Source: a bacterium
GTDB lineage: Bacteria > UBP6 > UBA1177
Direction of reading: 5' to 3'
Length of the DNA stretch: 35,615 nt
Assembly (NCBI GenBank): GCA_017645765.1
Contig: JAGCNV010000064.1
Span: forward strand, 1-35,615
Part shown: piece after piece, positions 13,073-21,132 of the stretch
How positions within the stretch are numbered: the stretch's first letter is position 1
Layout: each line of letters starts with the position of its first letter
Notes under the pieces: model-generated
Told to the model about the DNA's origin: nothing
The model's database searches: none
What the model saw: the letters and a program-made list of their open reading frames with translations, nothing else
Program-made: the position numbers and the translations under genes

Positions 13073-15223
13073 ATGAAAGAAAAAATAACCGCTTTTTTCT
13101 TCGCGATTCTTTTTTTCATCCTTTACGTTCTTGTTGCAACTAATTTTAATGTTCATGCTTATTTTACTACTTTTTTTCCTAAACTGCATATTCTCCTGAT
13201 TCCCTTTCTTGTGATTTTTCCGACAGTGTATTGGCTGAAACCGGAAATTTTGAAGAATTCTGCTGAATTTATTGCAAAATATTCAATTTTTGTCCTGCCT
13301 GTGCTTATGTTTCTAACAGCTCTTGCTTTCAACAGGCTTTTTATTTTGACAGAGAATCCTGAAGATTGTATCCATTATGTCTGGCTTGCAAAACTTATCG
13401 CAAACGGCAGGTTTTATCTTGATGTTCCCGATTTTTACGAACATTACCACGCTGCATTTATGTTTGTACGTGACGGAAAATACACTTCTATTTTTCTTCC
13501 CGGATTCAGTCTTTTCATGGCTCCGTTCGCGAAATTCGGTCTGGAATATATGTTCAATCCGTTTCTTGCCGGAGTGAACACATTTTTAGTCGGAATACAC
13601 GCCGAAAAACTGAAAAACAGATATGCCGGTGTTATCGCAATGCTCCTTTTTTCTTTCTCTACGACCCACATTCTTCACGGAGCGCTCTATTTTCCGCACC
13701 ATTTTGGTCTTGCTCTAGTTCTTGTTTCATCGTATGTCCTTCTTTATAAGCCATTGAAACCGTTGAACATTCTGTTTGCAGGTTTGTTGGTTGCGTACTC
13801 ACTTTTTATTCGTCCGCAAAACGCGGTTTATGTATATGTGTCATTTATAACATACATTGTTTTCAAGCACAGGAATCTTAAAACGGCGTTTCTTTTTACT
13901 GTGCCTTTTTTGTTTTTCGGAGGGCTGCTCTGCTGGTACAACTGGTTTTTTACAGGAAATCCTCTGGTTTTCACTCAGGACATTCTTTTTAATTTTCTTG
14001 ATATGAAAGATTTCTGTCACCGTCCCGGATTGGGAAAAGGGTGCTTTTTTACTTCAAATTATGACGGCACTCTTCCTCCAAGCGGAACGACGATTCCTTT
14101 TCTGGCGCACATATCGTTTCTTAGACTAAATAATTTCGTTCATAGGATAACTTTTCACCACGCAATGCTGCTTTTTATATTTCCTGTAATAATTTCAAAA
14201 CCTTATAAATACTTTCCATATTATTTCACACCGCTTTGCGCTCTTGCTTTCTACTTCTGGTTTTTTATCGAGGGCAATTTCGGCGGTCCGCGCTATCTCA
14301 TGGAATCAGGCGCAATGATTCTTATTCTTTCTTCATGCGGATTTGTGGGAACCATTGAATATTTACTTAATAAAAACAATAAATTGGCAAAACTGGCAGC
14401 AATGTCTGTGAACGGACTTTTTGCCGGACTTATAGCTTTTTTCTGCTTTTTTGTTCTCCCTTCTTTCTGCAATAAAGTGCCTTTCGGGGAAAATCCTGAC
14501 GAAGTAAAGAAAATAATTGAGGAAAACAAAATCGAAAACTCTATAGTTTTTACCCATTTTCAGATTCTCTTCCAGCCCGAGTCAATTCTGAAACTTCAGG
14601 ATAATCCGCCGTTCGACAAGCACGGAAACCTTATAATATATTCTTTAGGACAACTGGATGAAAATCTTTTGAAATTCTATTCCGGAAAAGATTTCAAAGA
14701 GGCATGGAGGATAGAAGTTGCATCTGAAATCGACATGAAAAGAACTTATAAAGCCACCAAACTCGATTTTTTGGATAACGACGGCGTTTATTACATCAAT
14801 TTTCTGGCGAAAGATCTGCCGTTAAGCGGTTCTCCGCAGTTTGTTTACGGAATAATCGGGGAGAAGAATAAATTCACTGAGGATTTTTTCGATTATCATC
14901 CGCCTGAAAAGTTCGTTTTCTTGGGAACAGGAATTGTTTTCGGAGAGCCTGGAAACTACTACGGTGTGGAGCACACATTGAAAGAAAGCGGAATGTATGA
15001 TTTAAAGCTGATTTTTGTTCCAACCGGATGCACGACAAAGTTCTATGTAGAAATAAACGGAAAGAAATCAGCAAGTTACAATAATTCAGACAAAGAAAAA
15101 CTGAGTTTGCCAGCGACTTTGGAATTCAATGCGGAAATGTATCAGGGTAAAAATACGATAAAATTCATTCCCGAAGCGAACGGATGTCTGATACTCGGAG
15201 AGATGATTTTGCAGAAAAGATAA
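13073..15223 (+). CDS. Large GT-C-type membrane protein (putative lipid-linked-sugar glycosyltransferase)
   Basis: 716 aa. About 11-12 hydrophobic segments occupy residues 1-470. They are followed by a soluble C-terminal region of about 240 aa that looks beta-rich (for example GMYDLKLIFVPTGCTTKFYVEING). The first large loop has acidic and aromatic residues (ENPEDCIHYVWLAKL, YTSIFLPGFSLFMAPF) in the position expected for GT-C glycosyltransferases of the GT39/ArnT type. No specific family is recognised with confidence, so substrate and product are unknown. It starts 6 bp after the regulator gene and probably shares its transcript. The ATG is preceded by only a weak SD. Confidence 0.6.
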   Translation: MKEKITAFFFAILFFILYVLVATNFNVHAYFTTFFPKLHILLIPFLVIFPTVYWLKPEILKNSAEFIAKYSIFVLPVLMFLTALAFNRLFILTENPEDCIHYVWLAKLIANGRFYLDVPDFYEHYHAAFMFVRDGKYTSIFLPGFSLFMAPFAKFGLEYMFNPFLAGVNTFLVGIHAEKLKNRYAGVIAMLLFSFSTTHILHGALYFPHHFGLALVLVSSYVLLYKPLKPLNILFAGLLVAYSLFIRPQNAVYVYVSFITYIVFKHRNLKTAFLFTVPFLFFGGLLCWYNWFFTGNPLVFTQDILFNFLDMKDFCHRPGLGKGCFFTSNYDGTLPPSGTTIPFLAHISFLRLNNFVHRITFHHAMLLFIFPVIISKPYKYFPYYFTPLCALAFYFWFFIEGNFGGPRYLMESGAMILILSSCGFVGTIEYLLNKNNKLAKLAAMSVNGLFAGLIAFFCFFVLPSFCNKVPFGENPDEVKKIIEENKIENSIVFTHFQILFQPESILKLQDNPPFDKHGNLIIYSLGQLDENLLKFYSGKDFKEAWRIEVASEIDMKRTYKATKLDFLDNDGVYYINFLAKDLPLSGSPQFVYGIIGEKNKFTEDFFDYHPPEKFVFLGTGIVFGEPGNYYGVEHTLKESGMYDLKLIFVPTGCTTKFYVEINGKKSASYNNSDKEKLSLPATLEFNAEMYQGKNTIKFIPEANGCLILGEMILQKR

Positions 15224-18582: not shown

Positions 18583-18611
18583 ATTATATTGAGAATGGTT
18601 TTTAAAAGCAA
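18583..18611 (-). promoter_or_regulatory. Promoter for the MFS transporter
   Basis: On the reverse strand: -35 TTGCTT (18606-18611), a 17-nt spacer, and a perfect -10 TATAAT (18583-18588). The expected start near 18576 leaves a leader of about 38 nt with the AGGAGG site, supporting TTG 18538 as initiator. Confidence 0.75.
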
Positions 18612-18687: not shown

Positions 18688-19854
18688 ATGCGACTCACAG
18701 ATTTCATTCCGGTCGATAAAAGTTCAGCAATAAGGGCTTTTCTTTTTTCGCTTCTCACAACTGAAAAAGTTGATATTTTCTGCGGAGAAGAAGAACTTCC
18801 ACAAGATGTTTTATCGGCTTTCAACTGTTTGAAATCATTTGGTAAAATTGTCGAATTGCAAAACGGAAAAATCACGGTTTCGGGAACGGCGAAAACTCCT
18901 GAAAAACCAGTTGACTGCGGAAATTCGGCGACGATGATGCACATTCTTATGGGAATAAGGCAGCATTTCGGCTGGAAATTCGGACTCACAGGCGACGAAT
19001 CGCTGATGTCTCGCAATCACGGAGATTTTGAAGAGGCTGCGGAACTTTATGACGGCAATTTTGTCGAAACGACCCTCTCGAAAGAGAGTGCGCAACTCAA
19101 GTCTTTTCACCTTCTTGCAATGCTGAAAAGCGGCGGAAAACTTCATTTCAAGAGCAGAACGCGCAGAAATACAGAAGATTTTCTGCTGAAAATGGGGGCG
19201 AAAATCGTTGAAAAACCGAACTCCGTCGAAGTTTTTCCGGTTGAGTGTCTGCACGGTTATTCAGTTAAAATCAAACTTGATCCCTCATCCGCTTTCATTG
19301 CCGTATGCACCGCTTTAATTTTTAAGAAATCATTTGTAATCTCAGATATTTACAAAGATGATTCTCGAATGACGCCTTTTCATTTGCTTCAAAATGCGGG
19401 ATTTGACATACAAATTAAAGAAGATAGTGATTCTTTCGAAATCTCGGGAAATCCGATCTGCAAAGAAGTGCACGATATAAATGTCAAAGAAAATCAAATT
19501 GCTGAAATTATTGATGAAATACCGTTCATCGCCTTAATGGTCGCACAAGCAGGCAGAACATTTTCGGTTAGAAACGCCTCTTGGCTCAGAAACAAGGAGA
19601 GCGACCGCATTGCTGAAAGTGTGAAAAGATTTTCGCTTCTCTTTGAAACGGAGGAATTTGCCGACGGATTTACCGTTTACGGCGCGGCAAAACACGCTTT
19701 GAAAGGCGATATCCCGCATAACCTTGATCACAGAATGGAGATGCTTTCAAGTCTGATGGCACAAAATTCAGGTGTCGATTTTAAAATGAATGATTCCTAT
19801 AAAATTTCTTTCCCAAAATTTTACGAACTTACGGAATATTTAAAAAATGACTAA
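18688..19854 (+). CDS. aroA: 3-phosphoshikimate 1-carboxyvinyltransferase (EPSP synthase), divergent
   Basis: 388 aa, shorter than the usual 420-440. Joins shikimate-3-phosphate with PEP in the shikimate pathway. Recognisable blocks are PVDKSSAIR (K11, R16), VDCGNSAT (N79-A81), SAQLKS, IIDEIPFIA, LRNKESDRI, DHRMEM and the late Lys in YKISFPKF. The position equal to E. coli Gly96 is Ala81, as in glyphosate-tolerant class II enzymes. ATG 18688 has GAGG five bases upstream; the frame is open further to 18589, but that segment contains the terminator-like hairpin and is not conserved-looking. The 3' end overlaps aroQ by 8 bp. Divergent from the MFS gene. Confidence 0.88.
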   Translation: MRLTDFIPVDKSSAIRAFLFSLLTTEKVDIFCGEEELPQDVLSAFNCLKSFGKIVELQNGKITVSGTAKTPEKPVDCGNSATMMHILMGIRQHFGWKFGLTGDESLMSRNHGDFEEAAELYDGNFVETTLSKESAQLKSFHLLAMLKSGGKLHFKSRTRRNTEDFLLKMGAKIVEKPNSVEVFPVECLHGYSVKIKLDPSSAFIAVCTALIFKKSFVISDIYKDDSRMTPFHLLQNAGFDIQIKEDSDSFEISGNPICKEVHDINVKENQIAEIIDEIPFIALMVAQAGRTFSVRNASWLRNKESDRIAESVKRFSLLFETEEFADGFTVYGAAKHALKGDIPHNLDHRMEMLSSLMAQNSGVDFKMNDSYKISFPKFYELTEYLKND

Positions 19855-20095
19855 TGAAATCAAAGAATTAAGGAAAGAGCTCGATTTGCTTGACGATACT
19901 ATCGCGGAACTTCTTCTGAAAAGGATCGAGACCGGAAAAAAGATCGTGAAACTGAAAAAAGAAGCCGGAATATCCAAGGACGATCCTGAGCGCGAAAAAG
20001 AGATCCTTGAGAGGATCACTGCCGGAAAAAGTGAGATCGCCGAACTTCTGACAACCCTTTACGGGAGAATATTCGATTGGGTAAAAAATCGATAA
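19847..20095 (+). CDS. Chorismate mutase, AroQ class
   Basis: 82 aa, a stand-alone all-helical AroQ domain. Converts chorismate to prephenate for Phe and Tyr. Key features are LRKELDLLDDTIAELLLKRI (N-terminal Arg and helix 1) and KKIVKLKKEAG with the catalytic Lys, followed by DPEREKEILERI. It overlaps aroA by 8 bp at the 5' end and the PLD gene by 19 bp at the 3' end, giving coupled expression with aroA. No fused prephenate dehydratase or DAHP synthase domain is present. Confidence 0.9.
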   Translation: MTNEIKELRKELDLLDDTIAELLLKRIETGKKIVKLKKEAGISKDDPEREKEILERITAGKSEIAELLTTLYGRIFDWVKNR

Positions 20096-21132
20096 CTAAA
20101 GGAAAATATTTAAGAAAAATCGAATTTCTGACTATAGTCCTGATTTCTTTTTTTCTCTATTTTATACTTAAGGAAGAACCTCGAAAAGAGACTGCTCCGA
20201 AGATTATCGAACCTGAGACAGCTCCCGCTAAACTCGAGCCTGAGAAGCCTGAAATTGAAGAAAAAGTTTCAGTCTATTTTGACAGAGACGTTCAGCCGAT
20301 AGTTGAAAAAATGATAAAAAGTGCCGAAAAAACGATAGATGCGGCGACTTATACCTATTCAAAAAATGAAGTTACCGCTCTGTTGGAAAAACGGGCTGAA
20401 GAAGGTGTTAAAGTGCGTCTTGCGGCGGGAAGAAACAAGGATAAAACGCTTCCGGCGTTCGATTTTTCGCTTGCGAAAACGGATAACGGCATATATCACC
20501 CGAAATTTTTCGTTTTGGACGGGCGTGACGTGCTGATCCTTTCGGCGAATATATCTTCTTCTGCCGATGCTTCGAACAATGCTGTCCTATTCAAGAATGT
20601 TCCCGAAGCTGCGGCGATACTGAAAGCTGAAATTGACGACGTTTTTGCGGGGAATATAGAAAAAAGATGCGCTGACGGGTGCATTACAGAGATCGGAACG
20701 ATAATTTTCAATCCCGGCAAAGGCTGCGTGAAGGTTCGGGACGAATTTCTTGCAGCAGAAAAATCAATAAAAGGGGCTGTTTATACCGTGACACAGAAGA
20801 ATCCCGTTTTAACCGGACTCAAAAAGGCTGTGAAGCGCGGCATCGACACTCGGCTCATCCTCGACAACTGGCGCGGAGACGACGGAAAAATCGTGAATAA
20901 AAAGGCGGCGAACTATCTCGAAAGCATCGGCGTAAACCTCAAATATGACGAGCAGGAAAAGTCAGATGAGCACCTTTTTCACCACAAATTCGCAGAAATC
21001 GATGGCGTTACGGCAATTTTCGGATCAATGAACTGGACAGCTTCGGCGTGTTACAGAAACCGCGAGATAACAGTTATTTCAAAAGATCCGCTGGTTGCAA
21101 CATCTTTTGAAGAATATTTTGACAATTTTTGA
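20077..21132 (+). CDS. Membrane-anchored phospholipase D-like protein (two HKD motifs)
   Basis: 351 aa. One N-terminal membrane segment (about 16-31, FLTIVLISFFLYFIL), then a Pro/Glu-rich linker (about 33-65), then two PLD repeats. Repeat 1 has HPKFFVLDG and repeat 2 has HHKFAEIDG followed by FGSMNWT, both with the expected His-Lys-Asp spacing, so it is probably active. Substrate could be phospholipid or nucleic acid; the layout resembles secreted endonuclease-like PLD proteins. The start is TTG 20077 with GGGAG upstream, inside the end of aroQ; no ATG occurs before the membrane segment. It is the last gene of the aroA-aroQ unit, with no evident functional tie. Confidence 0.8.
   Translation: MGKKSITKGKYLRKIEFLTIVLISFFLYFILKEEPRKETAPKIIEPETAPAKLEPEKPEIEEKVSVYFDRDVQPIVEKMIKSAEKTIDAATYTYSKNEVTALLEKRAEEGVKVRLAAGRNKDKTLPAFDFSLAKTDNGIYHPKFFVLDGRDVLILSANISSSADASNNAVLFKNVPEAAAILKAEIDDVFAGNIEKRCADGCITEIGTIIFNPGKGCVKVRDEFLAAEKSIKGAVYTVTQKNPVLTGLKKAVKRGIDTRLILDNWRGDDGKIVNKKAANYLESIGVNLKYDEQEKSDEHLFHHKFAEIDGVTAIFGSMNWTASACYRNREITVISKDPLVATSFEEYFDNF

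Follow-up and report, generated by a model that had tools for sequence, protein, structure and literature searches.

A short, divergent EPSP synthase with alanine at the Gly96 position in one family of candidate phylum UBP6

Introduction

EPSP synthase (EPSPS), the product of aroA, is the target of glyphosate, and SAQxK is a class mark of its class II members. The Agrobacterium CP4 enzyme (PDB 2gg4, 2gg6 and 2gga) is a glyphosate-insensitive class II EPSPS with Ala at the position of E. coli Gly96. The S. pneumoniae enzyme (1rf4), also of class II, has Gly there, as does the class I AroA of E. coli, which carries SSQ in place of SAQ. AroA also occurs in fused shikimate enzymes, such as those modelled in NCBIfam as TyrA-AroA and AroA-cytidylate kinase and the fungal AROM.

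According to PMC8983318, glyphosate is bound by CP4 in a condensed pose and the A100G change restores sensitivity. The E. coli G96A change raises the glyphosate Ki over 1000-fold and the PEP Km 23-fold in PMC3411725, and a 100-fold tolerance is stated in PMC4709569. The latter also describes a Janibacter class I enzyme that becomes almost inactive with G96A, so Ala by itself predicts neither activity nor tolerance. It further calls the XLGNAGTAXRXL region critical for PEP binding and describes RxHxE and NxTR as marking class II, while RPMxR is so presented in the title of a reference that it cites.

Here, we analyse an aroA gene in a DNA stretch of 35,615 nucleotides (the window hereafter; contig JAGCNV010000064.1 of assembly GCA_017645765.1). 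Its genome, 2.65 Mb and 99% complete, belongs to the candidate phylum UBP6, whose genus UBA1177 is listed among rumen genomes in PMC7820578. Among open-licence papers searched by titles and the starts of abstracts, nothing was found on the EPSPS subgroup described below or on a fusion of AroA with the AroQ chorismate mutase.

Results

The window's aroA spans 18688–19854 on the forward strand and encodes 388 amino acids, with its stop codon at 19852–19854. The ATG at 18688 is favoured as the start over a possible in-frame TTG upstream at 18589, because the alignments of the relatives begin at the ATG. The protein matches PF00275 at 6.9e-42 (144 bits; cut-off 22.8) and the NCBIfam aroA model TIGR01356 at 2.2e-47 (161.8 bits), the latter below the naming cut-off of 287.25 bits. 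At this length, and identical to CP4 in 25.7% and to E. coli AroA in 21.0% of aligned columns, it is indeed short and divergent, as an earlier note on the sequence had described it.

No second EPSPS was found in the window's genome, where the one further PF00275 place is MurA on another contig. AroC, AroB, AroE and AroK are all present there, and aroC, aroK and aroB are clustered on its contig C34.

The GNSAT loop (residues 78–82; 18919–18933, forward strand) contains Ala81, encoded by the GCG codon at 18928–18930. The earlier note was right to assign this Ala to the Gly96 position. Ala81 stands opposite E. coli Gly96 and CP4 Ala100 free of gaps in the MAFFT alignments of 42 and 57 rows, where its flanks also match Asn94 and Thr97 in E. 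coli numbering. The HMMER alignments to the solved class II-type chains 1rf4, 3rmt and 3roi give the identical register with Ala81 against Gly, so that no alignment of either kind shifts it off the Gly96 column. The CP4 sequence was verified against PDB 2gg4, and PDB 2pqd has Gly where CP4 has Ala.

We call the short divergent form of the window gene and its relatives mini AroA, found in 16 UBP6 genomes. Among 28 UBP6 genomes, these 16 belong to the genera g1, g2 and g4 of a single family, seven others carry an AroA above the naming cut-off, and five have only MurA-type places or a fragment. TIGR01356 recognises all 16 mini proteins with E-values of 0.001 or lower, and the lowest identity of any of them to the window protein is 43%. 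A profile of the family run over 290 genomes gives them 582–705 bits and the next best place 159.5, and by this profile the mini form is confined to UBP6 within the 290-genome sample. There are 19 next-best places, of which 15 were fetched, three were already in the set and one (G274) was skipped. All 15 fetched proteins fall with the class II-type: position 96 is Gly and position 100 Arg, position 388 is Ala except for one Ile, and the variable interval spans 42–45 residues.

The records of five of the nine close loci mention a ruminant: reindeer, water buffalo, goat, yak or red deer. The closest named relative, L035 (CACYHH010000001.1), is titled as an uncultured Spirochaetales and two of the other close loci as UBP6 (UBA1177 and UBA1196), so one of these titles is probably wrong.

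The mini proteins form a single clade with 100/100 support on a stem of 2.38 changes per column in the 42-row tree and 2.94 in the 50-row tree, the latter omitting seven of the 16 mini rows. Another 100/100 branch groups them with the class II-type sequences and splits off the class I-type ones, which include E. coli AroA, the other UBP6 AroA and others; both labels are ours and follow from where a sequence falls in the tree with respect to E. coli and CP4. A tree with class II minus the mini clade as one side is unrejected (p-AU 0.311, 50-row tree). The distinct subgroup proposed earlier is borne out as a clade, one that may lie either within class II or beside it. The multi-domain fusion L045 was excluded from the trees and residue tables, and the fusion tails of L016, L018 and L019 and the extra parts of L028 and L107 were trimmed before the alignments and trees.

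The other UBP6 AroA (L048–L054) share the phylum with the mini ones, and L050 even the family. They are nonetheless class I-type, lie above the TIGR01356 cut-off and are not the closest relatives. Vertical descent of the mini form from them is therefore unsupported.

In comparison rows drawn mostly from similarity-picked genomes rather than a random sample, position 96 is Ala in all 16 mini proteins, in two of the 31 class II-type sequences (CP4 and L022) and in three of the ten class I-type ones (L046, L050 and L052). The other 29 class II-type sequences have Gly, and the S. pneumoniae enzyme, of class II according to PMC3411725, reads GNSGT. The earlier note took Ala at 96 as characteristic of glyphosate-tolerant class II enzymes such as CP4, but these counts do not support it as a mark of class II.

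Two further positions set the mini proteins apart from the 41 other EPSPS examined. The position of E. coli Arg100 and CP4 Arg104 is taken in the MAFFT alignments by His85 in the window (18940–18942, forward strand), and it is His in 15 and Arg in one of the mini proteins but Arg in all 41 others. Position 388 is Glu in every mini protein and in none of the others (Ala in 37, Ile in three and a gap in one).

Seventeen active-site positions, catalytic or ligand-binding, are invariant in all 16: in E. coli numbering, K22, S23, R27, D49, N94, T97, R124, S169, Q171, D242, S244, D313, K340, E341, R344, H385 and R386. E. coli S170, S197, Y200, N336 and K411 are changed in the mini proteins, and the class II-type rows differ there too.

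The class II motifs are retained in part. SAQxK, at Ser134-Ala-Gln-Leu-Lys138 in the window (19087–19101, forward strand), occurs in all 16 mini proteins and all 16 class II-type controls but in none of the ten class I-type sequences; the class I SSQ is absent from the mini proteins, all of which have SAQ. An Asp precedes Lys22 in all 16, and CP4 has the same Asp-Lys-Ser in its Lys22 loop. RPMxR, in contrast, is found in none of the mini proteins and in 15 of the 16 controls. At its site the window has Arg109-Asn-His-Gly-Asp113 (19012–19026, forward strand), where the first Arg alone, E. coli Arg124, is retained. NxTR is likewise absent from all mini proteins and present in 13 controls, although Arg227 is retained in all 16 mini proteins. 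The RxHxE pattern appears in one mini protein, off its site, against all 16 controls. The site itself, Arg159-Arg-Asn-Thr-Glu163 in the window (19162–19176, forward strand), has Asn in place of His and lacks His in every mini protein, reading RRNTE in 15, the window included, and RNSTE in one. CP4, unlike these, carries Arg104, RPMxR, RDHTE and NPTR. We guess from the alignment that Asp113 and Arg160 of the window protein might replace CP4 Arg132 and Asp201 as a pair with its members swapped.

Around an approximate deletion junction at residues 121–124 (19048–19059, forward strand), the window protein is some 20 residues shorter than other EPSPS. The interval from Arg124 to Ser169 in E. coli numbers is 24 residues in the window and 24–25 in 14 mini proteins, as against 41–42 in the two g4 members, 44 in CP4 and 40–45 in the 41 others. 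The AlphaFold2 model of the window protein (pLDDT 91.6, pTM 0.91) passes from a helix at 112–118 through a single strand at 126–129 to a helix at 135–148. The model of the class II-type L044 (mean pLDDT 91.5) has a helix at 123–131, strands at 135–136, 145–148 and 156–158, and a helix at 164–174. A β-hairpin of the N-terminal domain is thus predicted to be missing: the model indicates this for the window protein, and the interval length for 14 of the 16 mini proteins.

The predicted model supports the two-domain EPSPS fold. Its top match by Z is the tetrahedral-intermediate-bound S. pneumoniae EPSPS 1rf4 (Z 45.7, 380 of 388 residues, 2.0 Å), an enzyme that differs in having Gly at 96 and Arg at 100. 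CP4 2gg6 follows at Z 43.3, E. coli AroA at about 38 and MurA at 32–34, and CP4 2gg6 and 1rf4 take the top ranks in Foldseek.

The hairpin-bearing genus g4 falls inside the mini clade in both trees, and this arrangement needs either a regain of the hairpin or its repeated loss. We distrust that rooting because of the long stem. Our guess is a single loss with g4 basal.

Downstream of aroA lies aroQ (19847–20095, forward strand), encoding a type II chorismate mutase of 82 amino acids (PF01817, 3.8e-15 over 81 of 82 residues), whose start overlaps the aroA stop by eight bases. It is followed by a gene for a phospholipase D-like protein (PLD; 20077–21132, forward strand; PF13091, 4.3e-36), whose start codon is uncertain and whose product contains two PLDc_2 stretches. 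The trio is conserved, with aroQ immediately downstream of mini aroA and PLD adjoining aroQ in all 16 genomes. In three of them AroA and AroQ make one open reading frame of 468–496 amino acids with both Pfam domains (L016 in G010, L018 in G018 and L019 in G017). This likens them to the known fused shikimate enzymes, although the partner here is AroQ chorismate mutase, and none of the NCBIfam models matched by these three proteins joins AroA to chorismate mutase.

Over ten pairs, the aroA dN/dS is 0.15–0.27 against five relatives and 0.15–0.23 in five further pairs. It is 0.15–0.24 for aroQ, 0.10–0.16 for PLD and 0.01–0.08 for the acyl-CoA ligase, MFS, Lon-like, PPIase and 6PTPS genes where present. 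Hence, aroA is under purifying selection yet evolves faster than most of its neighbours.

The gap between MFS and aroA is only about 120 bases in the window, and in two relatives (L035:4233–5906, reverse strand, and L039:2500–5888) it holds a gene whose lipoprotein-like product carries repeats of GDPIMAGDPIM, along with two WRLP-type regions, and an additional gene in one relative. Elsewhere in the window, a stretch that looks repetitive comes before 638–1447, whose Lcl_C-domain product has a Cys-rich region. The 716-residue protein encoded at 13073–15223 looks membrane-embedded by eye and matches no Pfam family at 0.001.

In two congeneric genomes, G001 and G013, neither aroA nor aroQ was found, whereas aroB and aroC are kept; a search for PLD, run without a positive control, also came back empty. 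The region beside MFS has no aroA in G013, and the contig ends about 1.6 kb beyond MFS in G001. Because MFS is sometimes not beside aroA, the two being on different contigs in G003, the MFS regions cannot separate loss from gap. Either a loss of the cassette or an assembly gap is possible.

Two observations concern other shikimate genes of UBP6. In two genomes of family f4, chorismate mutase and chorismate synthase are close neighbours whose open frames come out equally long (448 amino acids at G025:C3 and 454 at G027:C196), so they look fused, and UBP6 seems to join chorismate mutase to various shikimate enzymes. The aroC genes of g1, g2 and g4 score 243–272 bits (e.g. G000:C34:62041–62997) against 306–382 elsewhere in UBP6, which suggests that the late shikimate genes may have an unusual common origin.

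Discussion

Judged from sequence and model, the window gene most likely encodes a functional, divergent EPSPS, the sole one found in the genome. Taken as a whole, it is very likely a lineage-specific, slimmed and fast-evolving EPSPS that comes from the class II side and has Ala fixed at 96. It would move the enolpyruvyl group of PEP onto shikimate-3-phosphate, very probably through the usual closed-domain addition-elimination, because the conserved residue set is kept and the model fits the liganded closed structures best. With E. coli AroA it has in common the 17 conserved positions and the fold, while E. coli has SSQ and Gly96 and stands on the opposite side of the 100/100 branch. With CP4 it shares the fold, Ala at 96, SAQxK and Asp-Lys-Ser.

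One alternative, in line with the earlier note, is an ordinary class II EPSPS that shares the Ala of CP4. SAQxK and the Asp before Lys22 in 16 of 16, the 100/100 grouping with class II apart from the class I-type and the class II enzymes as closest structures all agree with it. It is unlikely all the same, as RPMxR, NxTR and on-site RxHxE are found in none of the 16 against 15, 13 and 16 of the 16 controls, the deletion is present in 14 and Arg100His in 15, the stem is long, and a tree that keeps the clade out of class II is not rejected (p-AU 0.311). We also reject class II membership argued from the Ala, since three motifs are broken and Ala is rare among the class II-type sequences.

A decaying or neofunctionalised relative that no longer makes EPSP would suit the fast evolution, the lost motifs and hairpin, Arg100His and the possible absence in two congeners. 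Indeed, the His at position 100, inside the PEP-binding region described in PMC4709569, counts against normal function, as do an aroA dN/dS above that of five neighbours and the two genomes that show no aroA. Such a decay is nevertheless quite improbable: the 17 active-site positions are identical in all 16, internal stops occur in none of the 16 matches, selection is purifying, the linkage to aroQ is kept, and AroB, AroC, AroE and AroK are maintained in a genome where no other EPSPS was found. The chance that a MurA-type enolpyruvyl transferase was mistaken for AroA is negligible. The superfamily is common to both and a MurA model matches weakly at 1.9e-4, but the AroA model is far better at 2.2e-47, EPSPS structures are closer (Z 45.7 against 32–34) and a separate MurA is encoded on another contig of the genome. 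MurA identity is rejected.

As to glyphosate, the methyl of Ala81 would narrow the pocket and make the herbicide bind poorly, as in CP4. By this analogy, such a narrowing and hence glyphosate tolerance are plausible and somewhat favoured. Because Ala at 96 is common to the three genera g1, g2 and g4, it is more likely older than glyphosate use than a response to the herbicide.

A bolder reading, which we offer tentatively and rate below even chance, is that the mini proteins constitute a separate structural lineage of EPSPS, held by one UBP6 family as sampled. It would work without the hairpin, Arg100 and the second Arg of RPMxR, be intrinsically insensitive to glyphosate and be coupled physically or translationally to chorismate mutase.

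For the enzyme family, equating Ala at 96 with class II leads to misclassification. The NCBI naming cut-off for aroA misses the mini lineage, so its genomes risk being miscalled as aromatic auxotrophs and could also be left unclassified for herbicide sensitivity. Having the shared active-site set without three of the class II motifs and, in all but one member, without the Arg100 common to both classes, mini AroA tests what is needed for PEP use and for the exclusion of glyphosate. If it is truly a separate lineage, the minimal architecture of the glyphosate target could be defined.
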